Positions 545 to 20,468 of a stretch of DNA of 64,000 nucleotides are shown in pieces; the first letter of the stretch is position 1, and each line of letters begins with the position of its first letter. The stretch comes from Streptomyces sp. DHE7-1. Lineage in GTDB: Bacteria > Actinomycetota > Actinomycetes > Streptomycetales > Streptomycetaceae. The stretch covers positions 5,548,001 through 5,612,000 of the forward strand of contig JACJDG010000003.1 in assembly GCA_016432725.1 (NCBI GenBank), given 5' to 3'. The position numbers and the translations under genes were made by a program. The notes under the pieces are model-generated. The model saw only the letters and a program-made list of their open reading frames with translations, did no database searches and was not told where the DNA came from.

Positions 545-602
545 TTTTCCTTTCGTCATCGTCAGTGAGCCGCCCCGTCGCGGGATTTCCGAGGAGTCCG
601 TC

Positions 603-1187: not shown

Positions 1188-1373
1188 GCGGGCGGGCGGC
1201 GGCCCCGGGCGGGCGGGCGGCCCCGGGCGGGCGGCGGTCAGCGCGCCCGACGCGTGACCGGGGGCGCGGGGAGCCGGCCGTGATCGTCTCGGCCGTCGTC
1301 CTCCCGGGCTCGGCCACCGATGACGGCCCTGAGGCGGACCAGAGACCTTATAGGGCGCTGACCCGCGGAAGTC

Positions 1374-2468: not shown

Positions 2469-2540
2469 GCCCTTGCCCTCTTCCTCGTCTCGCGGTCGAC
2501 CCGGCGCCACGGTGGTGAGCGACTCCGTATGGCCAACTCC

Positions 2541-2560
2541 ACTCACTCGAAGGAGTGAGT
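2541..2560. promoter_or_regulatory. perfect palindrome between CAP-domain gene and acylphosphatase
   Basis: ACTCACTC-GAAG-GAGTGAGT, 8-bp perfect arms with a 4-bp loop, in the divergent promoter region. Related TCGAAGG-GTG strings occur twice upstream of nsdA (14268-14286 and 14401-14418). Likely a repressor/activator site or hairpin; no regulator can be named. Confidence 0.45.
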
Positions 2561-2649
2561 TTCATATGAGATTCATTGGGTCCGGACGGTACCGCATGCC
2601 ACTGGGGCGGGGTGTGTCCCGTGTGACATTGGCCGGTTAGGTTGCACCC

Positions 2650-2931
2650 ATGAGCGAGGATGTTCGACTGGTCGCCTGGGTGAGGGGACGCGTCCAAGGT
2701 GTGGGTTTCCGCTGGTTCACGCGGGCCAAGGCGCTGGAGATCGGCGGCCTGAGTGGTTTTGCTCTCAATCTGGGCGACGGCCGCGTCCAGGTCGTCGCCG
2801 AAGGGTCCCGGAACGGCTGCGAGGGTCTGCTGGACTGGCTCCAGGACGGCGACACGCCCGGACGCGTCGACGGAGTCACCGAGATCTGGGACACACCCCG
2901 CGGCGGATACGACGGCTTCGCCATCCGGTGA
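2650..2931 (+). CDS. acyP: acylphosphatase
   Basis: A 93-residue enzyme, the family's usual length, that hydrolyses acyl-phosphates such as 1,3-bisphosphoglycerate to carboxylate and phosphate. The two catalytic signatures are intact: [11 protein letters not shown] near residues 14-24 with the phosphate-binding Arg, and [13 protein letters not shown] near residues 36-48 with the catalytic Asn. Start is ATG with no clear Shine-Dalgarno; only a few bases separate it from a TAGGTT element, so the mRNA may be leaderless or short-leadered. Monocistronic, upstream of the smc region. Confidence 0.95.
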
Positions 2932-3167
2932 ACCGATTCTGTGGAGCCGCCCCGGCAGCCGCGCGGTGACCTGCCCCTGGCACATGCCCACAGCAGAAAT
3001 GGGCTGGTGGTTGCCAAGGAGAGCGCCACATGGCAGGCTCCGCAGGTACAGCTGATCGCCAGGCCCCGAGGGCCCCGCAGGAGACGCCGCGCCACCGTCC
3101 GGTGACCGTGCGCCCCGGGTTCGCCCGCCAATACGGGGTGTGATCGTGTTGACCGTCAAACTTTTTG

Positions 3168-3265
3168 GTGAGACGCTGAAAGCCCCGCGCACCTTAGCTG
3201 TTTGGCATGTAGGAACGCAGAGCAACACTCGAGTGTGCCAAGCACCGCGGGTGCGAATCCCTCAC
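3168..3265 (+). ncRNA. candidate structured leader RNA (nested helices) upstream of coiled-coil gene
   Basis: The 381-bp gene-free stretch 2932-3312 contains three nested complementary segments. GTGAG (3168-3172) pairs with CTCAC (3261-3265). CGCACC (3188-3193) pairs with GGTGCG (3250-3255). GUUUGGCA (3200-3207, one G-U pair) pairs with UGCCAAGC (3236-3243). The apex holds CACTCGAGTG. GGGTGCGAATCCC resembles a tRNA T-arm or a riboswitch core loop, but no acceptor stem or complete known riboswitch consensus could be matched. The gene at 3313 starts 47 bases downstream with its own GGAGG. Upstream, TTGACC (3149-3154) could be a -35 element. Function is unknown. Confidence 0.35.
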
Positions 3266-3312
3266 GACCCACACCGCATCGGTCGGTCACTCATTGTGGA
3301 GGACCATCCATC

Positions 3313-3516
3313 ATGGCAAAGGCGCTTCTCGGTTACGTCGGCGGCTCCGACCCTCGACTCCTCGCCGAGATGCGACGGCTGCAGCAGCGTGTCCAGGACC
3401 TGGAGTCCGAGCTCGTACGGATCCAGGCGGAGAACGACGCGCTGGCGGCTGCCGCTTCTCAGGACAGGATCATGGAGAGCATCGACGCACACCAGGCGGA
3501 GCCTGCGCTCACCTGA
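3313..3516 (+). CDS. small conserved coiled-coil protein
   Basis: A 67-residue protein starting ATG GCA AAG at 3313 with GTGGAGGA ten bases upstream; longer upstream starts run through the structured leader and are unlikely. Residues ~15-45 (RLLAEMRRLQQRVQDLESELVRIQAENDAL) carry Leu/Met/Val at heptad positions and should form a coiled coil. The rest is Ala-rich and acidic. I recognise no catalytic motif. It is followed by a strong terminator at 3612 and then smc, so it is probably transcribed alone. Function unknown; a small oligomeric adaptor is an inference from the coiled coil only. Confidence 0.8.
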   Translation: MAKALLGYVGGSDPRLLAEMRRLQQRVQDLESELVRIQAENDALAAAASQDRIMESIDAHQAEPALT

Positions 3517-3611
3517 TCGCTGCACCGCTCCACGACAGCAGTCGCAGCGGTTGGGGCGCCCGTATCAACCGCGCTAGTAGAAGGCAACCGCGACCCGGTA
3601 GCCAGAGTGGC

Positions 3612-3640
3612 AAGGGACGCTTCGGCGTCCCTTCTTTCTT
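3612..3640 (+). terminator. intrinsic terminator
   Basis: AAGGGACGC-TTCG-GCGTCCCTT, a 9-bp perfect stem closed by a stable UUCG tetraloop and followed by CTTTCTT. It ends transcription of the small coiled-coil gene before smc. Confidence 0.9.
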
Positions 3641-3759
3641 CCCCCGTGCATCCTTTCACCGTCTTTAACGTTTGGTTTGCCCTGCGTGTTCAATGGCGAA
3701 ACCGTGCGGTTGCGAGTGTCCGTGGAGTGAGATAGCGACGGCGGGTAAAGTCCGGCGGC

Positions 3760-6700
3760 GTGCACCTCAAGGCCCTGACCCTCCGCGGGTTCAAGTCGTT
3801 CGCCTCGGCGACCACACTCCGGTTCGAACCGGGCATCACGTGTGTCGTCGGTCCGAACGGCTCGGGCAAGTCCAACGTGGTGGACGCGCTGAGCTGGGTC
3901 ATGGGTGAGCAGGGCGCCAAGTCCCTGCGCGGCGGCAAGATGGAGGACGTCATCTTCGCCGGCACCACCGGCCGCCCGCCGCTGGGCCGCGCCGAGGTGT
4001 CCCTGACCATCGACAACTCCGACGGCGCCCTGCCCATCGAGTACGCCGAGGTCACCATCACGCGGATCATGTTCCGCAACGGCGGCAGCGAGTACCAGAT
4101 CAACGGCGACACCTGCCGTCTGCTGGACATCCAGGACCTGCTCTCCGACTCCGGCATCGGCCGCGAGATGCACGTCATCGTCGGCCAGGGCCAGCTCGAC
4201 TCCGTCCTGCACGCAGACCCCACCGGCCGCAGGGCGTTCATCGAGGAGGCCGCGGGTGTCCTCAAGCACCGCAAGCGCAAGGAGAAGGCGCTGCGGAAGC
4301 TCGACGCGATGCAGGCCAACCTCGCCCGCGTGCAGGACCTCACCGACGAACTGCGCCGCCAGCTCAAGCCGCTCGGCCGGCAGGCGGCGGTGGCCCGCCG
4401 CGCCGCCGTCATCCAGGCGGACCTCCGCGACGCCCGGCTGCGCCTCCTCGCCGACGACCTCGTCCGCCTGCGCGAGGCGCTGAAGTCCGAGATCGCCGAC
4501 GAGGCCGCCCTGAAGGAACGCAAGGAGTCCGCCGAGCGGGAGCTGAGGAAGGCGCTCCAGCGGGAGGCCTCGCTGGAGGACGAGGTGCGACGGCTCGCGC
4601 CGCGCCTGCAGCGCGCCCAGCAGACCTGGTACGAGCTGTCCCAGCTGGCCGAGCGGGTCCGCGGCACCGTCTCGCTGGCCGATGCCCGGGTGAAGAGCGC
4701 CACCTCCGCGCCCCCCGAGGAGCGGCGCGGCCGCGAGCCGGAGGACATGGAGCGCGAGGCCGCCCGCATCCGCGAGCAGGAGGCCGAGCTGGAGGCGGCT
4801 CTCGAAGCAGCGCAGCGGGCCCTGGACGACACGGTCGCCCACCGCGCCGAGCTGGAGCGTGAACTTGCGGTCGAGGAACGCCGGCTGAAGGACGCCGCCC
4901 GCGCCATCGCCGACCGTCGCGAGGGACTCGCCCGCCTCTCCGGACAGGTCAACGCGGCCCGCTCGCGCGCCGCCTCGGCCCAGGCCGAGATCGACCGCCT
5001 GGCCGCCGGCCGCGACGAGGCGCAGGAGCGCGCGGTCCGGGCCCAGGAGGAGTACGAGACCCTGAAGGCCGAGGTCGACGGTCTCGACGCCGACGACGCC
5101 GACCTCGCCGAACGGCACGAGACGGCGAAGCGGGCCCTCGCCGGAGCCGAGTCCGCGCTGACCGAGGCCCGCGAGGCGGCCACCGCCGCGGAGCGCCGGC
5201 GCGCCGCGACCCGGGCCCGGCACGAGGCGCTGGCGCTGGGTCTGAGGCGCAAGGACGGCACCGGCATACTCCTGGGTGCCCGCGACCGCCTCACCGGGAT
5301 CCTGGGCCCGGCGGCGGAACTGCTGACGGTGGCCCCCGGACACGAAGTCGCACTGGCCGCGGCCTTCGGCGCCGCGGCCGACGCCGTCGCCGTGACCTCC
5401 CCGGCCGCGGCGGCCGAGGCGATCCGCCTCCTGCGCAAACAGGACGGCGGCCGGGCGGCCCTGCTCCTGACCGACACCCGGGAGGCCGCCGACGGCGGCC
5501 CGGACGACCCCGGCGACGGACCGGGGGACGAGCGCCCCGGCGGTGCCCTCCGCGCCGCCGACCTGGTGCGGGGCCCCGCCGGACTCATGCCCGCCGTGCG
5601 GCGGCTGCTGCGCCGGATCGTGGTCGTCGGCACTCTGGAGGACGCCGAGGACCTGGTCCACGCGCACCCCGGGCTGACCGCCGTCACCGCCGAGGGCGAC
5701 CTGCTCGGCGCGCACTTCGCGCACGGTGGCTCGGCCGGCGCGCCCAGCCTCCTGGAGGTGCAGGCCTCCGTGGACGAGGCGGCCGCCGAGCTGGAGGTGC
5801 TGGCCGTCCGCTGCGATGAGCTCACCGAGGCCCAGCACGCGGCGGCCGAGCGGCGCACCGCTGCCGCCGCGCAGGTGGAGGAGCTGGGGGAGCGGCGCCG
5901 GGCCGCCGACCGGGAGAAGTCGGCCGTGGCCCAGCAGCTCGGGCGGCTCGCGGGGCAGGCGAGGGGCGCGGCGGGGGAGGCCGAGCGGTCGGCCGCGGCC
6001 ACGGCACGCGCGCAGGAGGCGCTGGACAAGGCCGTGCTGGAGGCCGAGGAGCTGGCCGAACGGCTCGCCGTCGCCGAGGAGATGCCGGTCGACGAGGAGC
6101 CGGACACCTCGGTGCGGGACCGGCTCGCCGCCGACGGCGCCAACGCGCGGCAGACCGAGATGGAGGCCCGGCTCCAGGCCCGTACGCACGAGGAGCGGGT
6201 GAAGGGGCTCGCAGGTCGCGCCGACTCGCTGGACCGTGCGGCCCGCGCGGAGCGCGAGGCACGCGCGCGTGCCGAGCAACGGCGGGCCCGGCTCAGGCAC
6301 GAGGCGGCCGTCGCGGAGGCCGTCGCCTCCGGCACCCGTCAACTGCTCGCGCACGTCGAGGTGTCCCTCGGGCGGGCCGAGGAGGAGCGGGCCGCCGCCG
6401 AGGCCGCGAAGGCCCGGCGGGAGCAGGAGCTGACCGCCGCCCGGAACGCGGGCCGCGAGCTGAAGTCGGAGCTCGACAAGCTGACGGACTCGGTGCACCG
6501 GGGCGAGGTGCTCGGCGCCGAGAAGCGGCTGCGGATCGAGCAACTGGAGACGAAGGCGCTGGAGGAGCTGGGCGTGGAGCCGGCGGGACTGGTCGCGGAG
6601 TACGGCCCGCACCAGCCCGTGCCGCCCTCGCTCCCCGCCGCCGGCGAGGAGCTGCCCGAGGACCCGGAGCACCCGCGCAACCTGCCCCGGCCGTTCGCGC

Positions 6701-7344
6701 GGGCCGAGCAGGAGAAGCGGCTCAAGGCCGCCGAACGCGCCTACCAGCAGCTCGGCAAGGTCAATCCGCTGGCGCTGGAGGAGTTCGCGGCACTGGAGGA
6801 GCGGCACAAGTTCCTCAGCGAGCAGCTCGAGGACCTGAAGAAGACCCGCGCCGACCTCCTGCAGGTGGTGAAGGAGGTGGACGAGCGCGTCGAGCAGGTC
6901 TTCACCGAGGCCTACCGGGACACCGCCCGGGAGTTCGAGGGCGTGTTCAGCCGGCTCTTCCCGGGCGGCGAGGGACGCCTGGTGCTGACCGACCCGGACA
7001 ACATGCTCACCACCGGTGTGGACGTCGAGGCGCGTCCGCCGGGCAAGAAGGTCAAGCGGCTGTCCCTGCTCTCGGGCGGCGAGCGCTCGCTGACCGCCGT
7101 GGCGCTGCTGGTGTCCATCTTCAAGGCCCGGCCCAGCCCGTTCTACGTCATGGACGAGGTCGAGGCGGCCCTGGACGACACCAACCTCCAGCGGCTGATC
7201 CGGATCATGCAGGAACTCCAGGAGAGCTCGCAGCTCATCGTGATCACACACCAGAAGCGCACGATGGAGGTCGCCGACGCGCTCTACGGCGTCTCCATGC
7301 AGGGCGACGGCGTGTCGAAGGTCATCTCGCAGCGCCTGCGCTGA
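3760..7344 (+). CDS. smc: chromosome segregation ATPase SMC
   Basis: A 1194-residue SMC protein of full family length, starting GTG (MHLKALTLRGFKSFA). The N-terminal ATPase half has Walker A GPNGSGKSN at residues ~32-40. A first coiled-coil arm spans ~170-495, the hinge ~500-660 (beginning GTGILLGARDRLTGILG), and the returning arm ~680-1020. The C-terminal ATPase half has the signature LSGGERSLTAVAL near 1103 and Walker B FYVMDEVEAALDD near 1127. SMC with ScpA/ScpB condenses and aligns newly replicated chromosomes, which in Streptomyces matters most during sporulation septation. The gene is preceded by a terminator and followed by a 14-bp inverted repeat, so it looks monocistronic. Confidence 0.97.
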   Translation: MHLKALTLRGFKSFASATTLRFEPGITCVVGPNGSGKSNVVDALSWVMGEQGAKSLRGGKMEDVIFAGTTGRPPLGRAEVSLTIDNSDGALPIEYAEVTITRIMFRNGGSEYQINGDTCRLLDIQDLLSDSGIGREMHVIVGQGQLDSVLHADPTGRRAFIEEAAGVLKHRKRKEKALRKLDAMQANLARVQDLTDELRRQLKPLGRQAAVARRAAVIQADLRDARLRLLADDLVRLREALKSEIADEAALKERKESAERELRKALQREASLEDEVRRLAPRLQRAQQTWYELSQLAERVRGTVSLADARVKSATSAPPEERRGREPEDMEREAARIREQEAELEAALEAAQRALDDTVAHRAELERELAVEERRLKDAARAIADRREGLARLSGQVNAARSRAASAQAEIDRLAAGRDEAQERAVRAQEEYETLKAEVDGLDADDADLAERHETAKRALAGAESALTEAREAATAAERRRAATRARHEALALGLRRKDGTGILLGARDRLTGILGPAAELLTVAPGHEVALAAAFGAAADAVAVTSPAAAAEAIRLLRKQDGGRAALLLTDTREAADGGPDDPGDGPGDERPGGALRAADLVRGPAGLMPAVRRLLRRIVVVGTLEDAEDLVHAHPGLTAVTAEGDLLGAHFAHGGSAGAPSLLEVQASVDEAAAELEVLAVRCDELTEAQHAAAERRTAAAAQVEELGERRRAADREKSAVAQQLGRLAGQARGAAGEAERSAAATARAQEALDKAVLEAEELAERLAVAEEMPVDEEPDTSVRDRLAADGANARQTEMEARLQARTHEERVKGLAGRADSLDRAARAEREARARAEQRRARLRHEAAVAEAVASGTRQLLAHVEVSLGRAEEERAAAEAAKARREQELTAARNAGRELKSELDKLTDSVHRGEVLGAEKRLRIEQLETKALEELGVEPAGLVAEYGPHQPVPPSLPAAGEELPEDPEHPRNLPRPFARAEQEKRLKAAERAYQQLGKVNPLALEEFAALEERHKFLSEQLEDLKKTRADLLQVVKEVDERVEQVFTEAYRDTAREFEGVFSRLFPGGEGRLVLTDPDNMLTTGVDVEARPPGKKVKRLSLLSGGERSLTAVALLVSIFKARPSPFYVMDEVEAALDDTNLQRLIRIMQELQESSQLIVITHQKRTMEVADALYGVSMQGDGVSKVISQRLR

Positions 7345-7363
7345 TCACCATTTCAAGATCAAC

Positions 7364-7396
7364 TCACCCTGTGTTCACCTTTTGAACACAGGGTGA
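7364..7396. terminator. long perfect inverted repeat after smc
   Basis: TCACCCTGTGTTCA and TGAACACAGGGTGA form a perfect 14-bp stem around the loop CCTTT, 20 bases after the smc stop. There is no T-run afterwards, as is common for Streptomyces terminators. The arms are less GC-rich than usual, so a protein-binding role is also possible. Confidence 0.65.
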
Positions 7397-7431
7397 TCCA
7401 GTGCGTCTTATAACTCACAGGCGAACAGGTA

Positions 7432-7471
7432 TTGACTTCGAAACTTGAAGGCATAGTCTCTGCAACGTTGC
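7432..7471 (+). promoter_or_regulatory. glcP promoter with LacI-type operator at the start point
   Basis: TTGACT (7432-7437), a 16-base spacer and TAGTCT (7454-7459) make a good vegetative promoter. The perfect palindrome GCAACGTTGC (7462-7471) begins three bases after the -10, where transcription should start. A central CG with TGCAACGTTGC matches the usual LacI/GalR half-site pattern. Binding would block initiation; the regulator is not in this window. Confidence 0.6.
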
Positions 7472-7569
7472 TTTTACCTTCAGGTCTAAGTGGTGTGAAC
7501 GCGGCACCACGGGATACCTGTAAGGGCTCACCCCACGCGGCAGCGTTGCCGTGGCCCGAGGAGTTATTC

Positions 7570-8988
7570 GTGACCAGCACAGCGCAGGCACCCAAGCCAC
7601 GAGCCGGGACGGCTCACCCCGATCATCTCGGGCACGTCATCTTCATCGCGGCGGCGGCCGCCATGGGCGGTTTCCTGTTCGGTTACGACAGTTCCGTGAT
7701 CAACGGCGCCGTCGAGGCGATCCGGGGCCGCTACGACATCGGCTCCGCGGCTCTGGCCCAGGTCATCGCCATCGCCCTGATCGGCTGTGCCATCGGTGCC
7801 GCGACCGCCGGCCGGATAGCCGACCGGATCGGCCGCATCCGCTGCATGCAGATCGCCGCCGCGCTGTTCACGGTCAGCGCCGTCGGCTCCGCGCTGCCCT
7901 TCGCCCTGTGGGACCTCGCCTTCTGGCGCATCGTCGGCGGCTTCGCCATCGGCATGGCCTCCGTCATCGGCCCGGCCTACATCGCCGAGGTCGCCCCGCC
8001 CGCCTACCGCGGCCGGCTCGGCTCCTTCCAGCAGGCCGCGATCGTCGTCGGCATCGCCATCTCCCAGCTCGTCAACTGGGGTCTGCTGAACGCCGCCGGC
8101 GGCGACCAGCGCGGCACGCTGATGGGCCTGGAGGCCTGGCAGGTCATGCTCGGCGTCATGGTCGTCCCCGCGGTCCTGTACGGCCTGCTCTCCTTCGCGA
8201 TCCCCGAGTCCCCGCGCTTCCTGCTCTCCGTCGGCAAGCGTGACCGCGCCCGCGCGATCCTCGCCGAGGTTGAGGGCGGTGACGTGGACCTGGACGCCCG
8301 CGTCGCCGAGATCGAGCACGCGATGAAGAGCGAGGACCGGTCCACCTTCAAGGACCTGCTCGGCGGTGGCTTCTTCTTCAAGCCGATCGTCTGGGTCGGT
8401 ATCGGTCTGTCGGTGTTCCAGCAGTTCGTCGGCATCAACGTCGCGTTCTACTACTCCTCGACGCTGTGGCAGTCGGTCGGCGTCGACCCGACGGACTCGT
8501 TCTTCTACTCCTTCACGACGTCGATCATCAACATCGTCGGCACCGTGATCGCGATGATCTTCGTGGACCGCATCGGCCGCAAGCCGCTCGCCCTCATCGG
8601 CTCCGTCGGCATGGCCGTCGGCCTGGCGCTGGAGGCCTGGGCGTTCTCGTACGACCTCGTCGACGGCAAGCTGCCCGCCACCCAGGGCTGGGTCGCCCTG
8701 GTCGCCGCCCACGTCTTCGTGCTCTTCTTCGCCCTGTCCTGGGGCGTGGTCGTCTGGGTCATGCTCGGCGAGATGTTCCCGAACCGGATCCGCGCAGCCG
8801 CGCTGGGCGTGGCCGCCGCCGCCCAGTGGATCGCCAACTGGGCGATCACCGCGAGCTTCCCGTCGCTGGCCGACTGGAACCTGTCCGGCACGTACGTGAT
8901 CTACACGGTCTTCGCCGCGCTCTCCATCCCGTTCGTCCTGAAGTTCGTCAAGGAGACGAAGGGCAAGACGCTGGAGGAGATGGGGTAA
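7570..8988 (+). CDS. glcP: glucose permease GlcP (MFS sugar transporter)
   Basis: A 472-residue major-facilitator protein with about 12 predicted membrane helices. The GTG at 7570 (MTSTAQAPKPRAG) has GAGGAG eight bases upstream; upstream in-frame codons lie in the promoter. Sugar-porter signatures are clear: FGYDSSVINGA in helix 1, GRIADRIGRIRCM in loop 2-3, IAEVAPPAYRGRLGSFQQ, PESPRFLLS before the central loop, VDRIGRKPL and VKETKGKTLEEMG at the C-terminus. It closely resembles S. coelicolor GlcP, the H+-coupled glucose uptake permease, and sits beside smc as glcP1 does there. The promoter carries a LacI-type palindrome at the start point. Confidence 0.93.
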   Translation: MTSTAQAPKPRAGTAHPDHLGHVIFIAAAAAMGGFLFGYDSSVINGAVEAIRGRYDIGSAALAQVIAIALIGCAIGAATAGRIADRIGRIRCMQIAAALFTVSAVGSALPFALWDLAFWRIVGGFAIGMASVIGPAYIAEVAPPAYRGRLGSFQQAAIVVGIAISQLVNWGLLNAAGGDQRGTLMGLEAWQVMLGVMVVPAVLYGLLSFAIPESPRFLLSVGKRDRARAILAEVEGGDVDLDARVAEIEHAMKSEDRSTFKDLLGGGFFFKPIVWVGIGLSVFQQFVGINVAFYYSSTLWQSVGVDPTDSFFYSFTTSIINIVGTVIAMIFVDRIGRKPLALIGSVGMAVGLALEAWAFSYDLVDGKLPATQGWVALVAAHVFVLFFALSWGVVVWVMLGEMFPNRIRAAALGVAAAAQWIANWAITASFPSLADWNLSGTYVIYTVFAALSIPFVLKFVKETKGKTLEEMG

Positions 8989-9052
8989 CCGCCCCTTCCG
9001 AGTCCCGAGGAGAAGGGCCAAGTCCCCGCTGCCCCTCTCCTCGAACCCCCCG

Positions 9053-9087
9053 CCGTCCCCGCCCGGTCACTGCCCGGGCGGGGACGG
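9053..9087. terminator. bidirectional terminator between glcP and LLM oxidoreductase
   Basis: CCGTCCCCGCCCGG and its exact complement CCGGGCGGGGACGG enclose a 7-base loop (TCACTGC), followed by CTCTTT. It lies between two convergent genes. Confidence 0.88.
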
Positions 9088-9146
9088 CTCTTTGCCGCCC
9101 CGCCCCGCGCCGGCCCGGCACCGCCCGGCGGCCGTCCTCGCCGGGG

Positions 9147-10118
9147 TCAGCCGGCCAGTGCCGGGACCACCCGTTCCGCGAACAGCCGCAGGCTCCGCCA
9201 GCCCTCCGCCGGCGGCATCCCGCCGACCAGCGCATGCAGGACTAGGCCGTCCAGGCCGAGGCGCACGCACTGCTCGGGGGTGAGCACCCGGTACACGCCC
9301 TCCGCGCGCAGGTCGCGGACCGTGGCGGCAGCCGACCGCACCGCGGAGCGGGTCCCACCGGACTTCCAGGAGGCGTACGTCCGCGCCTCGTGCAGGAAGT
9401 GCCCGCCGTACTCGGCCCAGGTCCGGTCCGGATCCTCGGAGAGGTGCAGCAGCGGGTTCTCGGCAGCGGGCATCATGGTCCAGCCCTCGGTGCCGTACTC
9501 GGCGAGCCGCTCCTCGTCGTAGCCCGCCGGCTCCGGCAGGTGCGCGCCGGGGAAGAACGGCAGGCCCAGCCGGGCGGCCCGGCGCGCGGCGGCCCGGGAG
9601 GAACCGCCGACCAGCAGCGGCGGGTGCGGTTCGGTGTACGGGCGCGGAGTGAGCCGCACCCTACGCCCCCGGTAGCCGAACTCCTCGCCGGTCCACGCCT
9701 TCAGCAGGGTCTCCAGCAGCTCGTCCTGGAGCCGGCCGCGCCGCCGCCGGTCCACGCCGAACAGGGCGTACTCCTCGGGCCGGTACCCGATGCGGGCCAC
9801 CGTCACCAGCCGCCCGCCGCTCAGCAGGTCCAGTACGGCGATCTCCTCGGCCAGCCGCAGCGGATCGTGCAGCGGGCCGATCGCCGCCGCCACCGTCACC
9901 GCGATCCGGCGGGTGGCCCCGAGCACCGCGCCCGCGAAGGTGAACGGCGACGGCAGCCAGTTGTCGTCGGCGCCGTGGTGCTCCTCGGTCTGCACGGTGG
10001 TGACGCCGTGCTCGTCGGCGTACGCGGCCATCTCCAGCGCGGCCTGGTAGCGCGCGGAGAGAGAGGCGGGGGTGGCGCCGGGCTCGGCCAGGTTGAACCG
10101 CACGGCCGTGACGGGCAT
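9147..10118 (-). CDS. LLM-class (luciferase-like) flavin-dependent oxidoreductase
   Basis: A 323-residue TIM-barrel monooxygenase-like protein of the bacterial luciferase superfamily. The ATG at 10118 (MPVTAVRFNLAEPG) has GGGGGA upstream. Characteristic segments are TVQTEEHHGADDNWLPSP near residues 42-59, LAEEIAVLDLLSGGRLVTV near 90-108 and [19 protein letters not shown] near 170-190. These proteins use FMN, often with a partner reductase or F420, to oxidise small molecules; the substrate cannot be predicted. It is transcribed alone. The MITE-like element begins 40 bases upstream of its start and may supply or disrupt its promoter. Confidence 0.88.
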   Translation of the reverse strand: MPVTAVRFNLAEPGATPASLSARYQAALEMAAYADEHGVTTVQTEEHHGADDNWLPSPFTFAGAVLGATRRIAVTVAAAIGPLHDPLRLAEEIAVLDLLSGGRLVTVARIGYRPEEYALFGVDRRRRGRLQDELLETLLKAWTGEEFGYRGRRVRLTPRPYTEPHPPLLVGGSSRAAARRAARLGLPFFPGAHLPEPAGYDEERLAEYGTEGWTMMPAAENPLLHLSEDPDRTWAEYGGHFLHEARTYASWKSGGTRSAVRSAAATVRDLRAEGVYRVLTPEQCVRLGLDGLVLHALVGGMPPAEGWRSLRLFAERVVPALAG

Positions 10119-10157
10119 GACCGCGTCCCCCTTCACCGGATGGGTGTGCAGGGGGAC

Positions 10158-10340
10158 GCCAGGTCGTGTCCGCGAAGTCGCGCCTGCGTCGCGGCGCCCG
10201 GCACGCACTCTCGCCGCACCGGCCGGAAGCCCGAGTACACCCGGTAGGAGGGCGTCCGGCCGGCACGCCGGGAGCACGCACCGGACGCCGTGACGCCCGC
10301 CCTGCGGGCGAACGACGCGACTTCGCGGACACGACCTGGC
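10158..10340 (+). mobile_element. complete MITE-like inverted-repeat element (~183 bp)
   Basis: The ends are perfect 25-bp inverted repeats (10158-10182 and 10316-10340), beginning GCCAGGTCGTGTCCGCGAAG on the left. The interior is ~133 bp without a credible gene and includes further palindromic segments (GGGCGTCCGGCC, CGCCCGCCCTGCGGGCG). A second, inverted copy truncated by the window edge is at 1-88. The element separates the LLM gene from the NCS1 permease, which point away from it or end near it. No transposase is in the window, so mobilisation would have to be in trans. Confidence 0.8.
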
Positions 10341-10389
10341 TGACGGAACGTCAGGTGGCCATCGACGCGGCCCGGCGGCGCGGGCCCGG

Positions 10390-11861
10390 TCAGACGCCGG
10401 CGGCCGCGGGCTCCTCGGCGGGCTCGCCGGATCCGGCGGCGGTCCCGCCGGCCGGCGCCGGGCGCACCACCGCGGGCTTCGGCAGGGCCGTGTACAGCAG
10501 ACCGGAGATCACGATGGTGGCGACCCAGCCAAGGCCGTACTCGCCGATGACGTTGTTCTTCGCCAGCGGGCCGGTGAACCAGTCCGAGGTGGTGAACAGC
10601 AGGCCCCGGCGAGGCCGGCCGCCCAGGCCGCCACCGCGGCGGGGGAGAAGCCGCCCCGGTACCAGTAGGCGCTGGTGCGCGTGGTGTCGGCCATGGCCCG
10701 GCCGTCGTACTCGGTGCGCCGCAGCATGTCCGCGCCGAACACGCCGACCCAGGCCGAGAAGGCGACCGCCAGCAGGGAGAGGAAGGCGATGAACGAGCCC
10801 ATGAAGCTCGTCGCCACCAGCATCAGCACCCCGCCGAGGACGAGCGAGATCACGGCGTTCACCGAGACCGCCCAGTGGCGCGGCACCTTGAAGCCCAGGG
10901 TCTGCGCGGTGAAGCCCGCCGAGTACATGGACATCGAGTTGATCAGCAGCATGCCGATCAGCGCGATGAGCAGGTACGGCACCGCGAGCCACGTCGGCAG
11001 GATCTCGCCGAGGAAGGAGACGGGGTCCGCCGCCGAGGCCAGGTCGGGCGTGGAGACCGCCATGACCGCGCCCATCAGCACCATCGGCAGCACCACGATC
11101 CCGGCGCCGCCCACCGCCGTGCCCACGATCGCCTTCGACGACGCGGTGCGCGGCAGGTAACGGGTGAAGTCCGGCGCGGACGGGATCCAGCTGACCCCGC
11201 CCGCCGCGATCATCCCGATGCCGGTGATCACGGAGGCCGTGGAGCCCGCGCCGTGGTGCACGACCCTCGACCAGTCCGTGTGCACGGCCAGATAGCCGAG
11301 GACCAGCACGGAGAAGACGCCGAACACATAGGTCGCGTACTTGTTGCACTTCTGCACGGCGTTGATGCCGAGACCGGAGATCGCGAAGGTCGCGACGACG
11401 AAGGCCAGCAGCGTCACCATGTCCAGCACGCTGTTCGCCCTGATGCCGAACACGATGTCCAGGATGGTCAGCATCGCGTACGCGCCGGTCACCGCATTGA
11501 TCGTCTCCCAGCCCCAGCGGGCGACCCAGATCAGCGAACCGGGCAGCAGGTTGCCGCGCTGGCCGAACACCGCGCGCGACAGCGCCATGCCGGGGGCGCC
11601 GCCCCGCTTGCCGGCGATGCCGATCAGGCCGACCAGCCCGTAGGCCACGACCGGAGCGGCGGCCGCGACGACGAGGGCCTGCCAGATGTTCAGGCCGTAC
11701 GCCACCACCAGGCTCGCGCCCATGGTGAGCAGCAGCACGCTGATGTTGGCGCCGACCCAGGTCGGGAACAGTTCGCGGGTTCTCGCGGTCCGCTCGTGGT
11801 CGGGTACCTGCTCGATGCCACGGGTCTCGAGAGCGCCTTCGGCCTCGGCTGTCTTGCTCAT
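10390..11861 (-). CDS. NCS1-family cytosine/purine permease (reading frame broken once)
   Basis: About 490 residues after repair. The start MSKTAEAEGALETRG is followed by IEQVPDHERT and the NCS1 N-terminal pattern LFPTWVGANISV. About 12 membrane helices follow, with ARWGWETINAVTGAYA and WIPSAPDFTRYLP typical of cytosine/purine/allantoin permeases of the CodB-like group. The frame breaks at CCCC 10604-10607; adding one base joins FSPAAVAAWAAGLAG to GLLFTTSDWFTGPLAKNNV and restores the last two helices. The same kind of lost G/C recurs across the window, so I read it as a sequence error. It is divergent from ftsY. The substrate nucleobase is not certain. Confidence 0.85.
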
Positions 11862-12029
11862 GAAAGAGGGTGCCTCGGGGTGGGGGACGGGACGTCGGGG
11901 ACTCTACGCGCGTGGACGGAGCCAATACCATCGTACTTTGATCCGACTCATGCCTTCCAGTGGCTTTTGTCTCTCGGAGGAAGCCACGAACCCGGCGGCG
12001 GCGGACCCATGGCCGATACTGGACGCGTT

Positions 12030-13232
12030 ATGGAAACCATCATCCTTGCTGTAGTCATCGCCGTGGTCGTCCTCGGTGCGCTCGGCGGGCTCATCGTCGG
12101 CAGCCGGCGTCGCAAGCCGCTGCCCCCGCCGCCGCCCAGGACGCCCGACATCACCGCGCCCCCGGCCGAGCCGCACGTCGGCGAAGAGGCCGAGACACCG
12201 CGCGACGAACCGCGCCGGACGATCGAGGAGGTGGATCTTCCCGGCGGCCCCGCCCCGGTCGTCGTCGAGGAGCCGCCCACCGTCGAGGCTCCCGAGATCG
12301 AGATCCCGGAGCCCACCGCGGGGCGGCTGGTCCGCCTGCGCACCCGTCTCTCCCGCTCGCAGAACGCCCTGGGCAAGGGCCTGCTCACGCTGCTGTCTCG
12401 CGAGCACCTCGACGAGGAGACCTGGGAGGAGGTCGAGGACACCCTGCTCACCGCCGACGTCGGTGTGCAGCCCACCCAGGAGCTGGTCGAGCGGCTGCGC
12501 GAGCGGGTGAAGGTGCTCGGCACCCGCACCCCGCAGGAGCTGCGCGCACTGCTGCGGGAGGAGCTGCTCAAGCTGGTCGGCACCGACGTCGACCGCTCGG
12601 TCCGGACCGAGCCCGAGGACCGCAAGCCCGGCATCGTGATGGTCGTCGGCGTCAACGGCACCGGCAAGACCACCACCACCGGCAAGCTCGCCCGGGTGCT
12701 CGTGGCCGACGGCCGCACCGTGGTGCTGGGCGCCGCCGACACCTTCCGGGCCGCCGCCGCCGACCAGCTCCAGACCTGGGGCGAGCGCGTCGGCGCCTAC
12801 ACCGTGCGCGGCCCCGAGGCCGGCGACCCCGCCTCCGTCGCCTTCGACGCGGTGAAGGAGGGCAAGGAGATGGGGGTCGACGTGGTCCTCATCGACACCG
12901 CCGGCCGGCTGCACACCAAGACCGGCCTCATGGACGAGCTGGGCAAGGTCAAGCGCGTGGTCGAGAAGCACGCGCCGCTGGACGAGGTGCTGCTCGTCCT
13001 GGACGCCACCACCGGCCAGAACGGTCTGGTGCAGGCCCGAGTGTTCGCCGAGGTCGTGGACATCACCGGCATCGTGCTGACCAAGCTCGACGGCACCGCC
13101 AAGGGCGGCATCGTGGTCGCGGTCCAGCGCGAGCTGGGCGTCCCGGTCAAGCTGATCGGCCTCGGCGAGGGCGCGGACGACCTGGCGCCGTTCGAGCCGG
13201 AGGCGTTCGTGGATGCGCTCATCGGTGACTGA
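12030..13232 (+). CDS. ftsY: signal recognition particle receptor FtsY
   Basis: A 400-residue SRP-receptor GTPase. The ATG at 12030 begins METIILAVVIAVVVLGALGGLIVG, a hydrophobic N-terminal anchor (residues 3-24); an in-frame ATG 21 bases earlier is possible. Residues ~25-90 are Pro/Glu-rich. The N domain (RLRTRLSRSQNALGKGLL) follows, then the G domain with GVNGTGKTTTTGKLA near 206-220, AADTFRAAAADQL, DTAGRLHTK and TKLDGTAKGG. FtsY docks the Ffh-ribosome complex at the membrane translocon. Its partner gene ffh is 8 kb downstream. It ends at a strong bidirectional terminator. Confidence 0.96.
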   Translation: METIILAVVIAVVVLGALGGLIVGSRRRKPLPPPPPRTPDITAPPAEPHVGEEAETPRDEPRRTIEEVDLPGGPAPVVVEEPPTVEAPEIEIPEPTAGRLVRLRTRLSRSQNALGKGLLTLLSREHLDEETWEEVEDTLLTADVGVQPTQELVERLRERVKVLGTRTPQELRALLREELLKLVGTDVDRSVRTEPEDRKPGIVMVVGVNGTGKTTTTGKLARVLVADGRTVVLGAADTFRAAAADQLQTWGERVGAYTVRGPEAGDPASVAFDAVKEGKEMGVDVVLIDTAGRLHTKTGLMDELGKVKRVVEKHAPLDEVLLVLDATTGQNGLVQARVFAEVVDITGIVLTKLDGTAKGGIVVAVQRELGVPVKLIGLGEGADDLAPFEPEAFVDALIGD

Positions 13233-13262
13233 CGGCGGGGTGTGCTCACCCGCCGGATCGAA

Positions 13263-13299
13263 GAAGCGCCCGCCCCCGGTACACGGGGGCGGGCGCTTC
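13263..13299. terminator. bidirectional terminator after ftsY
   Basis: GAAGCGCCCGCCCCC and GGGGGCGGGCGCTTC form a 15-bp perfect stem around a 7-base loop, followed by GCCCTTT. It separates ftsY from the convergent prim-pol-like gene. Confidence 0.92.
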
Positions 13300-13386
13300 G
13301 CCCTTTCCGGCACATCCGCACGGGGCGGTCGCGCGGACGGCGCTCGTACGGAGTTCGCTCGGGCGGGGGCCGGACGCGGAGAACGC

Positions 13387-14049
13387 TCAGTCCCTCGCCC
13401 GCGACCGGTGGGCGACGTACGCCAGCGTGCCCAGCAGCAGCCTGGCGGCCGGCGGCCGGGTTGCCGAGTCCAGCGCGGGCGGACGCAGCCAGCGCACCGG
13501 CCCGAGGCCGCCCCGGTCGGAGGGCGGCGCGGTGATGTACGTCCCCGGGCCGAGGCCGCGCAGGTCCAGCGCGGACGGGTCGTCCCAGCCCATGCGGTAG
13601 AGGAGTCGGGGGAGGTCGGCGGCGGCGCCGGGGGCCACGAAGAAGTGGGCGCGTCCGTCGGCGGTCGCGGTGACCGGGCCGAGCGGGAGGCCCATGCGCT
13701 CGAGCCGCACCAGGGCGCGGCGCCCGGCGGGCTCGGCGACCTCGATGACGTCGAACGCGCGGCCGACGGCGAGCATCACCGAGGCGCCCGGGAACTCCGC
13801 CCAGGCCCTGGTCACCTCGCCGAGCGTGGCGCCGGCCGGCACCGTCGGCGCGAAGCCGAGCGGATGGGCGCCGGGGGCCCGGCAACCCGGCTGCCCGCAG
13901 GAGCAGACGCCCGCCGCGGCCCGTGCGCCCGGCACCACGTCCCAGCCCCAGAGTCCGGTGAACTCGGCGACGGCGGTGCACTCCGACGAACGGCCGCGCC
14001 GACGTGTGCCGGAACGGATCTCGCGCATACCGCCGATCGTGAAGCCCAT
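13387..14049 (-). CDS. stand-alone bifunctional DNA primase/polymerase N-terminal-like protein
   Basis: A 220-residue protein resembling the prim-pol fold (PF09250) of plasmid and phage replication proteins: GWDVVPGARAAAGVCSCGQPGCRAPGAHPLGF near residues 35-66 contains the Cys-rich loop, and the region RAHFFVAPGA to GPGTYITAPPSDRGGLGPVRW matches the family's later core. The usual catalytic Asp pair is not obvious: residues ~95-105 read GRAFDVIEVAEP with a single Asp-Glu set. Helicase or ATPase domains are absent, so it is a domain-only protein. Many Streptomyces carry it between ftsY and nsdA as a core gene, which argues for a resident cellular role. Start could also be MREIRSG seven residues in. 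Confidence 0.75.
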   Translation of the reverse strand: MGFTIGGMREIRSGTRRRGRSSECTAVAEFTGLWGWDVVPGARAAAGVCSCGQPGCRAPGAHPLGFAPTVPAGATLGEVTRAWAEFPGASVMLAVGRAFDVIEVAEPAGRRALVRLERMGLPLGPVTATADGRAHFFVAPGAAADLPRLLYRMGWDDPSALDLRGLGPGTYITAPPSDRGGLGPVRWLRPPALDSATRPPAARLLLGTLAYVAHRSRARD

Positions 14050-14505
14050 GCCCCCTCCAACGGGTCCGGCGCGCCGGTGGTTACGACGCGGAACGAGACG
14101 GAAGCGGAACGTGACGCTACGGCCGCGGTTCCGCTCGCTCCGTGAGGCCGAGGCGGCGCGTCGAAGCGTCGTGGGTGGCGCGAAGGGATTCGTGCGCCCC
14201 CGTGTGCATCACCCTGCCGACGGCCTGTCGTCCTATGTCAAGTGAATCGCGTTGCGCAGACCGTGAGTTCATTCGAAGGGGTGGCGAATGGTGGCGTTTC
14301 CCAGTCCGCCATGGCTGGACGGGTGATCGTGGGATTACTGTGAGTGTGTGAGGCCTGGGGGCACATGCCCTCGCGGGTATGCCGGAGGCAAGCCGTCGGT
14401 CCGTTCGAAGGGTGAGAACCGGCGGACGGGAGGCCCTGTTTACCGGCATTCTGATAGGGCTTGGCGCACTCGGCGGCAAGTGGTCTCAGGGATGGGGGCG
14501 TGCCA
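14050..14505. other. 456-bp gene-free region upstream of nsdA
   Basis: No credible gene: open frames here are GC-rich shadows. It holds two similar strings, TTCATTCGAAGGGGTGGCG (14268-14286) and CCGTTCGAAGGGTGAGAA (14401-14418), about 133 bp apart, and GTCCG/CGGAC complementary segments near 14399-14427. These are candidate regulator sites for nsdA or the divergent prim-pol-like gene. Confidence 0.4.
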
Positions 14506-15984
14506 GTGGGCGGCAACGGCGGAAGCGGGACGAACGCTGACAAGCGCCCCAACGAGCTGCTCGGCTCGTGGTTCGTGCGCAGCGGCTGGTCCAAGGGTGA
14601 GCTGGCCCGCCAAGTGAACCGCAGGGCACGCCAGTTGGGTGCCAACCACATCTCCACGGACACCTCGCGGGTGCGTCGCTGGCTGGACGGCGAGAACCCG
14701 CGCGAGCCGATCCCGCGGATCCTCTCCGAGCTGTTCTCCGAGCGCTTCGGCTGTGTCGTCTCCATCGAGGACCTCGGCCTGCGCGCCGCCCGCCCGTCCC
14801 CCTCCGCGTCCGGTGTCGACCTGCCCTGGACGGGCCCGCAGGCGGTGGCCCTGCTCAGCGAGTTCTCGCGCAGCGACCTGATGCTGGCGCGGCGCGGCTT
14901 CCTCGGGACCTCGCTGGCCCTGGCCGCGGGCCCGTCCCTGGTCGAGCCCCTGCAGCGCTGGCTCGTGCCGGCCCCCTCCTCCCCGGTCCCGCCGGAGCCC
15001 GAGTCCGTCCACGACTCCCGCAGGCCGGGCCGGCTGTCCAGGCCCGAGCTCGACCTGCTGGAGTCCACCACGCGCATGTTCCGCCAGTGGGACGCCCAGT
15101 GCGGCGGCGGTCTGCGCCGCAAGGCGGTCGTCGGCCAGCTCCACGAGGTCACCGACCTCCTCCAGGAACCCCAGCCCGAGGCCACCAGCCGCAAGCTCTT
15201 CAAGGTCGCCGCCGAACTCGCCGAGCTCGCGGGCTGGATGTCGTACGACGTGGGCCTCCAGCCCACCGCGCAGAAGTACTTCGTCCTCGCGCTGCACGCC
15301 GCGAAGGAGGCCGGCGACAAACCGCTCGGCTCATACGTGCTGTCCAACATGAGCCGCCAGATGATCCATCTCGGCCGGCCCGACGACGCCCTGGAACTGA
15401 TCCATCTCGCGCAGTACGGCAGCCGCGACTGCGCCAGTCCGCGCACCCAGGCCATGCTGTATGCGATGGAGGCCCGCGCCTACGCCAACATGGGCCAGCC
15501 CGGCAAGTGCAAGCGGGCCGTCCGGATGGCCGAGGACACCTTCGCCGACGCCGACGAGTGGGACGAGCCGGACCCCGACTGGATCCGCTTCTTCTCCGAG
15601 GCCGAGCTGTTCGCGGAGAACTCGCACTCCTACCGCGACCTCGCCTACGTGGCGGGCCGCAGCCCCACCTACGCCTCCCTGGCCCAGCCGCTGATGGAGC
15701 GGGCTGTGGAGCTGTTCGCCAAGGACCAGGAGCACCAGCGGTCGTACGCGCTGAACCTGATCGGCATGGCCACCGTGCACCTGCTGCGGCGTGAGCCCGA
15801 GCAGAGCACCCAGTACGCCTCCGACGCCATGCGGGTCGCCAAGAAGGTGCGCTCCGAGCGGGTGAACACCCGGATCCGCAAGACGGTCGACACCGCGGTG
15901 CGCGACTTCGGCGACCTCACCGCCGTCGTCGACCTCTCCGACCAGCTCGCCGTGGACCTGCCGGAGGCCGCGGAGGCCGTCTGA
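14506..15984 (+). CDS. nsdA: NsdA, TPR-type negative regulator of differentiation and antibiotics
   Basis: About 492 residues from GTG 14506 (MGGNGGSGTNADKRPNELLGS); a GTG two codons earlier is equally possible. The N-terminus resembles a short helix-turn-helix segment (WSKGELARQVNRRARQLG then STDTSRVRRWLDGENPR). A hydrophobic RRGFLGTSLALAAG stretch lies near residues 130-143. From ~180 onward there are helical TPR-like pairs such as LFKVAAELAELAGWMSYDVG and AMLYAMEARAYANMG. In S. coelicolor loss of nsdA increases actinorhodin and sporulation, hence negative regulator. The protein order ftsY, prim-pol, nsdA, amtB supports the name. Alone in its transcription unit. Confidence 0.88.
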   Translation: MGGNGGSGTNADKRPNELLGSWFVRSGWSKGELARQVNRRARQLGANHISTDTSRVRRWLDGENPREPIPRILSELFSERFGCVVSIEDLGLRAARPSPSASGVDLPWTGPQAVALLSEFSRSDLMLARRGFLGTSLALAAGPSLVEPLQRWLVPAPSSPVPPEPESVHDSRRPGRLSRPELDLLESTTRMFRQWDAQCGGGLRRKAVVGQLHEVTDLLQEPQPEATSRKLFKVAAELAELAGWMSYDVGLQPTAQKYFVLALHAAKEAGDKPLGSYVLSNMSRQMIHLGRPDDALELIHLAQYGSRDCASPRTQAMLYAMEARAYANMGQPGKCKRAVRMAEDTFADADEWDEPDPDWIRFFSEAELFAENSHSYRDLAYVAGRSPTYASLAQPLMERAVELFAKDQEHQRSYALNLIGMATVHLLRREPEQSTQYASDAMRVAKKVRSERVNTRIRKTVDTAVRDFGDLTAVVDLSDQLAVDLPEAAEAV

Positions 15985-16153
15985 ACCCGCAGGTCACCCA
16001 TGCGCCGGCCGTGGCCGGTCCTCCCGAACCGCCCGACTCGGCTCCCCCGCGCCAGGTCATCGGAGAGGCCCGCCGCGGCCGGTTTTCCTCGCGTCGAGAA
16101 GGTTGCGCCACGATAACGATCCCGCAGCCCGGCATCCCGCTCTTCACCGACGC

Positions 16154-16189
16154 GTAACACGCAGGGCGCCTTCGTCACCCGGGCGAAAC
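16154..16189 (+). promoter_or_regulatory. GlnR-type site upstream of amtB
   Basis: GTCAC-N6-GAAAC at 16174-16189 matches the actinobacterial GlnR half-box gTnAC-n6-GaAAc exactly. An upstream GTAAC (16154-16158) may begin a second, weaker half, though spaced 20 instead of 22 bases. The 330-bp gene-free stretch 15985-16314 contains nothing else recognisable. GlnR activates amtB-glnK-glnD under nitrogen limitation in Streptomyces. Confidence 0.7.
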
Positions 16190-16314
16190 AACGAGGGGCC
16201 TCCACCGAAACCGCGCTGCGCGAGTCTCATGGCGCATAACCGGCCCACCCCTCACCCGACCGGTCCGCCCAGGCACCGCCCGCACGGGGCCGTACAACCG
16301 ACGAGGAGACGCCG

Positions 16315-17992
<1,678 letters not shown>

Positions 17993-18018
17993 GACGACGC
18001 GAGGACAGGAGTCGCTGG

Positions 18019-20468
18019 GTGACGGGTACGGATGTGCGGAAAGAGACGGACGACTCGGGACCCGGCGGCTACGCGGCGGCCCGGCTGCGCCTCCTCACCG
18101 AGGAGGCGCGGTCCGGGCCGCCGCGCCGTTCAGCCCTCGCCGAGCTGACCGACGACTGGCTCTCCGGCCTCTTCACGGCCGCGGCCGAAGGACTCAGGGG
18201 TGTCTCGCTCGTCGCCGTCGGCGGCTACGGCCGTGGGGAGCTGTCCCCGCGCAGCGACCTCGACCTCGTGCTGCTGCACGACGGCGGCGACCCCGGCGCG
18301 ATCGCCGCCCTGGCCGACCGCCTCTGGTACCCGGTCTGGGACCTCGGCCTCGCGCTCGACCACTCCGTGCGCACCCCGGCCGAGGCCCGCCGGACGGCCG
18401 GTGAGGACCTGAAGGTCCAGCTCGGCCTGCTGGACGCCCGGCACCTCGCCGGCGACCTCGGCCTCACCGCCGGACTGCGCACCGCCGTCCTCGCCGACTG
18501 GCGCAACCAGGCCCCCAAACGCCTGCCCGAGCTGCAGGAGCTGTGCGCCGAGCGCGCCGAACGGCAGGGCGAACTGCAGTACCTCCTGGAACCCGACCTC
18601 AAGGAGGCCCGAGGCGGCCTCCGGGACGCCACCGCCCTGCGCGCCGTGGCCGCCTCCTGGCTCGCCGACGCCCCCCGCGAGGGTCTCGCCGACGCCCGCC
18701 GGCACCTGCTCGACGTCCGGGACGCCCTGCACCTGGCCACCGGCCGCGCCACCGACCGGCTCGCACTCCAGGAACAGGACCAGGTCGCGGCCGGACTGGG
18801 CCTGCTGGACGCCGACACCCTGCTGCGCCAGGTGTACGAGTCGGCGCGCGTCGTCTCGTACGCCAGCGACGTCACCTGGCGCGAGGTGGGGCGCGTGCTG
18901 CGCTCGCGGGCCGTCCGCCCGCGGCTGCGCGCCATGCTGGGCGGCGGCAAACCGGTCGCCGAGCGGTCGCCGCTGGCCGAGGGCGTGGTCGAGCAGGACG
19001 GCGAGGTGGTGCTCGCCCGCGCCGCACGCCCCGAACGCGACCCCGTACTGCCGCTGCGCGCCGCGGCCGCCGCCGCCCAGGCCGGCCTTCCGCTGTCCCT
19101 GCACGCCGTACGGCGCCTGGCCGCCACCACCCGCCCGCTGCCCACGCCCTGGCCCGCCGAGGCCCGCGAGCAACTGGTCACGCTGCTCGGTTCCGGCCGC
19201 CCGACCATCGACGTCTGGGAGGCCCTTGAGGCGGAGGGCCTGATCAGCCGCCTCCTGCCCGACTGGGAACGGGTCCGCTGCCGGCCGCAGCGCAACGCCG
19301 TCCACATCTGGACGGTGGACCGGCACCTGATCGAGACCGCGGTCCGCGCCTCCGAGCTGACCCGCCGCGTAGGCCGCCCCGACCTGCTCCTCGTCTCCGC
19401 GCTGCTGCACGACATCGGCAAGGGCTGGCCCGGCGACCACTCCGTGGCCGGCGAGATCATCGCCAGGGACGTGGCCGCGCGGATCGGTTTCGACCGGGCC
19501 GACGTCACGGTGCTCGCCACCCTCGTCCGGCACCACCTGCTGCTGATCGAGACGGCCACCCGGCGCGACCTGGACGATCCCGCCACCGTCCACTCGGTCG
19601 CCGAGGCCGTCGGCAGCCAAAGAACCCTGGAGCTGCTGCACGCCCTCACCGAGGCCGACGCGCTCGCGACCGGCCCCGCCGCCTGGTCCACCTGGCGCGG
19701 CTCCCTCGTCGCCGACCTGGTGCGCCGCGTGGCCGCCGTGCTGGCCGGCGACGCGGCCGAGGAACCCGAGCCCACCGCGCCCACCGCCGAGCAGGAGCGC
19801 CTCGCCATCGAGGCCTTCCGCACCGGCAGCCCCGTCCTCGCCCTGCGCGCGCAGACCGAACCGGGACCCGAGGAGGACACCCCCGGCGAGCCCGAACCGC
19901 TCGGCGTCGAACTGCTCATCGCCGTACCGGACCAGCCCGGCGTGCTGCCGGCGGTCGCCGGTGTCCTCGCCGTGCACCGGCTGACGGTGCGCACGGCCGG
20001 GCTGCGCGCCCTGCGCCTGCCCCACGACGTCGAGGACGCGTCGGTCCTGCTGCTGAACTGGCGGGTCGCGGCCGAGTACGGCTCTCTGCCCCAGGCCACC
20101 CGGCTGCGCGCCGACCTGGTCCGGGCCCTGGACGGCTCCCTCGACATCGCCGGCCGCCTGGCCGAACGGGACGCCGCCTATCCGCGCCGCCGCGGCCGGG
20201 TCGCCCCGCCGCCCCGGGTGACGGTGGCCCCGGCGGCCTCCCACCACGCCACGGTGATCGAGGTACGCGCCCAGGACGCCCCGGGCTGCTGTTCCGGATC
20301 GGGATGGCCCTGGAGAAGGCGGCGGTGCGGGTGCGCAGCATGCACGTCAGCACGCTGGGCGCCAACGCCGTCGACGCCTTCTACGTGACGACGGGCACCG
20401 GGGCCCCGCTGCCGCCGGAGGACGCGGCGTCGACGGCCAAGGTGCTGGAGGACACGTTGCGCGGATGA
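18019..20468 (+). CDS. glnD: PII nucleotidyltransferase GlnD (frame broken once near the C-terminus)
   Basis: About 816 residues after repair. Domains in order: nucleotidyltransferase with GGYGRGELSPRSDLDL near residues 67-82, a GlnE-like helical region, the HD hydrolase core LLHDIGKGWPGDHS near 463-476 with RHHLL downstream, and two C-terminal ACT domains (from ~630, and VIEVRAQDAPG near 752). GlnD modifies GlnK Tyr51 and removes the group again, with ACT domains sensing glutamine; in Streptomyces it acts as an adenylyltransferase. The frame breaks at CCGGGC near 20281-20286; one added C restores LLFRIGMALEKAAVRVRSMH and a stop at 20468. Confidence 0.94.

Follow-up and report, generated by a model that had tools for sequence, protein, structure and literature searches.

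A CTAG-bordered MITE family of Streptomyces with various ends around a conserved one-strand hairpin and an orientation linked to replication

Two short inverted repeats on the chromosome of Streptomyces sp. DHE7-1 are complete members of a large MITE family that occurs throughout the genus. Both lie in or at the edge of the window, by which we mean the whole 64,000-nt stretch that was analysed (G000:C1:5548001–5612000; the genome, G000, comprises 8.14 Mb in three contigs). Taken as a whole, the evidence is best explained by a family that would be mobilised in trans, with ends that can change, a core selected to pair on one strand, and loss of copies facing the wrong way relative to replication. 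We give this reading a probability of roughly 80 per cent.

Two copies in the window

The repeat described first from the window, here called copy 2, has perfect 25-bp ends, just as the preliminary description said: the left arm at 10158–10182 (plus strand) and the right arm at 10316–10340 (minus strand) are exact reverse complements at 25 of 25 positions. These arms include the two target copies, CCAG at 10159–10162 and CTGG at 10336–10339, which we read as decayed CTAGs, the right one being the mirror image of the left. The mobile unit itself is smaller (10163–10335) and is assigned to the minus strand, whose core forms a hairpin with G·U pairs (hereafter the RNA strand). Its conserved core hairpin occupies 10189–10294 on that strand and scores 89.9 bits with our core model, R1. 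As DNA, copy 2 folds at −84.5 kcal/mol, compared with a mean of −54.0 for shuffled sequences (z = −9.5); this fold and the presence of 13 copies in the same genome place the repeat far beyond chance.

Copy 1 had been taken for a truncated copy because the window edge (C1:5548001) falls inside it. It is a full 181-bp element (G000:C1:5547910–5548090, locus L012) whose right half covers 1–90 of the window on the plus strand, here the RNA strand, with part of the core at 1–60 (42.6 bits) and a CTAG target copy at 87–90. The inverted match between the two copies is real, joining 3–88 to 10161–10246, with six differences in 86 nt instead of the ‘about ten’ first counted.

The observation that the window holds no transposase also stands, as searches of the genome with three families (PF13359, PF01609, and PF13340) gave zero matches there. 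It had further been proposed that the two copies could support inversion of the segment between them. This is possible in principle, but we reject it here: both flanks of copy 2 are adjacent in relatives without the element and collinear with them. The flanks thus keep the ancestral order, and the segment between the copies shows no net inversion.

Copy number, end types, and spread

A blastn search of the DHE7-1 genome returned 57 match rows, a figure in which a palindromic place can appear once for each strand. Thirteen full copies, copy 2 among them, share at least about 84 per cent identity, and twelve of these share at least 93 per cent. Another thirteen copies at 76–79 per cent have other ends, and there are further partial or middle-only matches. 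Model R1 placed the core in at least fifty places of this chromosome, among the matches listed. Aligned copies from this genome show three main end types, type a (GGTCGTGTCCGC), type b (GGGCCTGTCTGA), and type c (GGGGGCGTCTCC), and one further type (TGCTGCGACCGG). Matching terminal repeats are present in most of the listed aligned elements.

Across genomes we worked with 103 distinct elements, which is 110 less those with identical flanks. Nearly all (95/103) are 166–185 bp long, with no transposase gene within. Matches were found in 62 of the 101 Streptomyces genomes sampled (own genome included, E ≤ 1e−6). The exact string CTAGGTCGTGTCCGC occurs in 23 of 150 genomes, again including our own, and its reversed control gave one hit in each of two. 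Twenty of 72,556 plasmid records matched, eighteen from Streptomyces and two from Embleya; one Embleya copy has the core and CTAG borders. None of 50,697 phage records matched.

Several elements depart from the standard form. L013 (own genome, C1:3427280) is chimeric, its two ends being of types a and b. L071 and L083 (218 and 235 bp) contain additional hairpin-like sequence inside the core. Three short elements of the own genome (L323, L324, and L325, near 6446300, 4764100, and 1631400) lack the core and have type-a ends with CTAG-type borders. In three further cases (L415, on a plasmid of Streptomyces sp. NBC_01450, and L319 and L322 in the own genome) an element abuts a neighbour of a different end type or lies inside that neighbour’s end.

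Borders, empty site, and target preference

CTAG is present at both ends of fifty-nine of the 103 elements. Among the other forty-four, twenty-four are one base off CTAG at one end and twenty are further off, though the borders of some of these twenty were probably misplaced by our border script. The intergenic stretch that holds copy 2 is present without the element in four relatives (G016, G012, G015, and G020). In G016 the matched flanks lie three bases apart, and the empty sites read TAGC, except for TATC in G015. Recent mobility had been called unlikely should the sequence prove single-copy apart from the two repeats, or fixed in all relatives without empty sites; neither is the case, as it is multi-copy and has empty sites in four relatives.

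Sequence analysis thus turned up each feature by which a MITE can be tested, including CTAG borders, an empty site, and partner transposons whose ends match fully or almost so (see below), and the elements would move in trans. An origin other than transposition, such as a protein-binding palindrome or a terminator amplified by conversion, might fit the position between convergent genes of 50 of the 100 elements that have a neighbour on each side. It is contradicted by the empty site, and also by the CTAG borders, the transposase-element ends, and the cases of one element against or inside another, and we give it almost no credence.

Ninety of the 103 elements had an upstream border (CTAG, CCAG, or CTGG) from which the empty site could be rebuilt. 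Fifty-one of these sites are gene stop codons, thirty-three are intergenic, and six are coding; for sixty-four background CTAGs in the flanks the counts are twelve, forty-six, and six (P = 2e−6 for the excess at stops). The nine CTAGs in the window outside the elements comprise one stop, seven intergenic, and one coding site. A CTAG target therefore places many insertions on TAG stop codons, and fifty-seven of the 103 elements have a gene’s TAG stop inside a terminal CTAG. Copy 1 is one example: the TAG stop of an HxlR-type gene (87–485, minus strand) is the CTA at 87–89, in its right CTAG. Copy 2 differs in its position upstream of a gene, 40 bp from the start codon of a luciferase-like monooxygenase (PF00296, 9147–10118, minus strand; the start at 10118 was set by eye, and longer open frames exist). 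Genes were called with our own codon-usage script, not taken from annotation.

Neighbouring genes are convergent around fifty elements, tandem around forty-three, and divergent around seven, with one neighbour lacking in three of the 103. Between tandem genes the element is sense in nineteen cases and antisense in twenty-four (P = 0.54), so there is no strand bias relative to the neighbouring genes, which disfavours the core as a 3′ hairpin of host mRNA.

Three other features of the window came up along the way. The palindrome CTGACG-N3-CGTCAG (10340–10354) adjoins copy 2, and both of its arms are kept in G016, G012, G015, and G020; it is a candidate regulator site, which copy 2 now cuts off from the downstream gene. 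The nearby cytosine/purine permease gene (PF02133, minus strand, frame 10509–11861) seems by eye to be frameshifted near 10600 (10560–10640), its C-terminal part running on in a frame that ends at 10390; this is either a sequencing error or a real lesion. Repeated segments at 29345–32430 resemble, by eye, several tandem signal peptidase I genes.

Partner transposons

The preliminary description had placed a partner insertion sequence (IS) elsewhere. We found such partners in other genomes. Several loci with a hit to DUF4096 (PF13340) have CTAG borders and related ends, and in others no such pair was found. Type b is matched exactly by L197 (genome G115), a 1670-bp element with a transposase over the cut-off for PF13340 and a second open frame that looks methyltransferase-like by eye. 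At its two ends it is identical to type-b MITEs over 18/18 and 27/27 nt, counting the CTAG. For type a, the ends of the 893-bp L235 (Streptomyces sp. WAC05374) depart from it at one position in 21 nt on one side and at two positions on the other, and those of L237 (Streptomyces sp. CB02009) are close. At L303 (Streptomyces nigrescens plasmid SNP1) the single end found equals a GGCC variant of type a over 20/20 nt. The transposase of L135, used in a scan that kept 80 named loci of 480 relatives, belongs to the IS5 family (PF13340, 104 bits; PF01609, 77 bits; NF033580 over the cut-off, both reading frames). L197, L132, L161, and L147 are all CTAG-bordered IS5-type transposons of about 1.3–1.7 kb, and each has a further open frame next to its transposase gene.

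The own genome gave a different result. None of its twenty-one DUF4096 hits is an IS with type-a ends, and among the thirty-four exact 12-mers listed all pairs were MITE-sized or smaller. Its IS5-type transposon L161 has ends near another type, not type a. Since no type-a transposon was found in this genome, recent movement here is unsupported.

We also considered the core as part of a transposase gene, and rejected this on the loci searched. A blastn search of cores against 114 (34 + 80) loci from the transposase searches returned pieces of 22–43 nt at most, and model R1 did not find the core in L197, L135, L161, or L132.

One conserved core, paired on one strand

About a dozen end sequences surround a single common core of about 106 nt. 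For the core analyses we kept 93 of the 103 elements by length and end score, which gave seventy-five distinct cores, of which seventy-two (105–107 nt) entered a tree. Between end groups the core is 79 per cent identical, compared with 45 per cent over 16 nt of the ends (3694 pairs, 93 elements). The end group switches nineteen times on the core tree, where the minimum for nine labels is eight and the mean for shuffled labels is sixty-two.

Read as the complement of the query (the minus strand for copy 2), the core forms a single hairpin of forty-five pairs, with 96.8 per cent of cells paired. Twenty-two of the forty-five pairs have changed on both sides, and none of 500 shuffles did as well. 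The pairing is asymmetric between the strands. Forty core sequences contain 346 G·U cells and ten A·C cells on the RNA strand, and at nine pairs G·U is frequent or the majority state across the forty. The RNA strand was the more stable in all thirty-five cores folded as RNA (mean −66.5 versus −44.7 kcal/mol) and, with DNA parameters, in all forty (−48.7 versus −34.7).

Changes inferred on the tree of seventy-two cores show the same asymmetry: Watson–Crick pairs became G·U fifty-five times and A·C sixteen times (P = 3.8e−6). The G·U state is not fixed, as forty-nine inferred changes run from G·U back to Watson–Crick. Under a looser alignment the core gave 42 versus 16, and the end repeats, used as a control, gave 24 versus 16, which is not significant (P = 0.27). 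Mutation that is neutral with respect to strand predicts equal numbers of the two changes; the excess points to selection for pairing on one strand. We infer that the core is probably kept for a strand-specific hairpin, formed in RNA or in single-stranded DNA.

Could the core instead be the neutral middle of an ordinary MITE family, with a recent common ancestor in which the G·U pairs were frozen and with ends changed by recombination between elements? The cores do align with few gaps, a single ancestor could explain the nine pairs that are so often G·U, and a type-a/type-b chimera exists. Yet a neutral middle would be expected to diverge more quickly than the ends, and it is the core that stays similar between types; the derived changes favour G·U, and nearly half of the pairs have changed on both sides. 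We therefore consider neutrality unlikely.

A second alternative keeps the pairing without selection on RNA, through template-switch correction of a DNA palindrome in which one arm is copied from the other. Mirror-image decay of the targets speaks for some such process: both CTAGs of copy 2 decayed in this way, and it is one of six among the eighty-four comparable elements (of 103) taken into the target-decay test that have CCAG at both ends when read inward, more than independent decay would give (P = 0.002), which suggests copying between hairpin arms. Correction of arm by arm should, however, erase G·U mismatches, and it gives no reason for G·U to exceed A·C on one strand. As the main cause of the pairing it is quite improbable, and we retain selection for one-strand pairing as the preferred explanation of the core.

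As to known RNA families, Rfam had no match at the gathering score in window positions 1–20000, and at four loci gave sub-threshold matches alone, to two miRNA models on the L104 core and to one snoRNA model elsewhere. Several frames of the core were also read by eye as possible coding sequence, and the changes seemed not to fall on third positions.

Orientation relative to replication

Taking dnaA as the marker of the origin, we compared the strand of each core with the direction of the replication fork. Core places came from model R1, among the matches listed alone, and where both strands of one place matched the second was left out. Nine of ten genomes contributed (G047 had matches, but none among those listed), and copies at orthologous sites were not collapsed. 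Among the matches listed in these nine genomes, the RNA strand runs against the fork in eighty-nine places and with it in twenty-seven (P = 6e−9). The counts are 41:9 in the own genome (G000), 19:6 in G066, 12:5 in G038, and 17:7 in the other six together; G000 and G066 alone are significant singly. The bias persists when the own genome is removed (48:18, P = 3e−4) and is 83:26 without G007, which was taken as a circularised record. The two copies in the window differ: copy 2 opposes the fork, and copy 1 points along it. Gene direction does not account for the bias, given the sense and antisense counts between tandem genes (19 versus 24).

Since the RNA strand mostly runs against the fork, the lagging-strand template is usually the strand with A·C mismatches, which forms the weaker hairpin. 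Hairpins are generally unstable when they form on that template.

The bias also differs with a proxy for age. Of ninety-two copies in three genomes, those with a relative of at least 95 per cent identity are split 14:10, compared with 58:10 for all others (P = 0.0096, or 0.003 by a rank test). The effect varies with the cut-off (P = 0.035 at 93 per cent, 0.23 at 90 per cent, and 1 at 85 per cent). By end type, the own genome has 7:5 for type a, 10:3 for type b, and 11:0 for type c, the difference between a and the other two not being significant (P = 0.086). Seven further type-c places bring that type to 18:0. Copies with close relatives are thus less biased, which suggests that wrong-way copies are lost, with age and end type confounded.

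The orientation might instead arise at insertion, if a transposase complex met the fork and inserted an asymmetric element one way. The overall bias would follow, and the single orientation shared by all type-c places of the own genome might reflect the end type itself. Polarity at insertion fits poorly with the presumably youngest copies being the least biased and with the near-even split of type a, though both comparisons are confounded with end type. We hold this alternative to be rather doubtful, and favour loss after insertion.

Proposed explanation

In the reading that we prefer, transposases of the IS5 family (DUF4096/DDE type; NCBIfam NF033580), which insert at CTAG, would move these MITEs in trans and duplicate the CTAG. 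Just over half of the sites are TAG stop codons of genes, where insertion would do little harm because the stop is restored. Over time the elements would have gained different terminal repeats, several of which resemble the ends of different CTAG-bordered IS5 transposons, so that the ends may track changing helpers as the core of about 106 nt is retained. The core would be conserved because one of its strands must form a hairpin; as G·U is accepted on the RNA strand, pairing would work in RNA, or single-stranded DNA, of that strand only. After insertion, copies would be preferentially retained when the strand with the strong hairpin does not serve as lagging-strand template.

A bolder form of this idea is a ‘satellite of satellites’. 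The one-strand hairpin, as RNA or single-stranded DNA, would be the unit of selection, swapping its ends again and again to borrow different CTAG-specific IS5 transposases across the Streptomycetaceae, with replication forks purging strong hairpins from the lagging-strand template. We offer this version tentatively, as one that may well prove wrong.

MITEs are usually viewed as passive deletion remnants of a single IS. Here the ends are changeable and the middle is conserved, which reverses that picture and makes switching of helpers testable. The orientation bias, apparently stronger in older copies, would if true be a natural record of encounters between forks and hairpins on a linear, GC-rich chromosome. 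Targeting of CTAG and stop codons is a way of spreading without breaking genes. There is a practical side as well, because the repeats are dispersed through Streptomyces genomes that serve antibiotic research, where they can mislead the placing of gene ends and assemblies.

Comparison with known systems

Integron attC sites are one-strand hairpins recognised through strand-specific mispairs. The MITE core is comparable as a one-strand hairpin, but its strand signal would be G·U versus A·C, with no integrase or cassette known.

The IS5-family group with DUF4096 and two reading frames (NF033580, transpos_IS5_3) shares CTAG borders and terminal repeats with the MITEs and is the likely source of their transposase. 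It differs in that the MITEs carry no transposase, and their core was not found in the IS5 loci searched.

In the parts consulted of the literature on MITEs, IS5 and CTAG, stem-loop repeats, and orientation (PMC4681348, PMC8269248, PMC4752480, PMC3116915), the family is undescribed; subscription journals and ISfinder were outside the scope. The end and core strings had no match in the literature searched. We found there no earlier description of changeable ends around a conserved one-strand core with an orientation linked to replication.

REPINs are tied to RAYT tyrosine transposases and, in the sections consulted of one account, are likewise paired hairpin elements with compensatory changes and extragenic positions (PMC3116915). 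Unlike them, the Streptomyces MITEs have a CTAG duplication and IS5-type ends. The same sections name nemis and ERIC as MITEs (PMC3116915). Like our elements, nemis and ERIC are short and non-coding, with terminal inverted repeats, a target duplication, many copies, and the ends of autonomous elements. The Streptomyces family differs from both in its many end types around one core, its strand-asymmetric wobble hairpin, and its replication-linked orientation.
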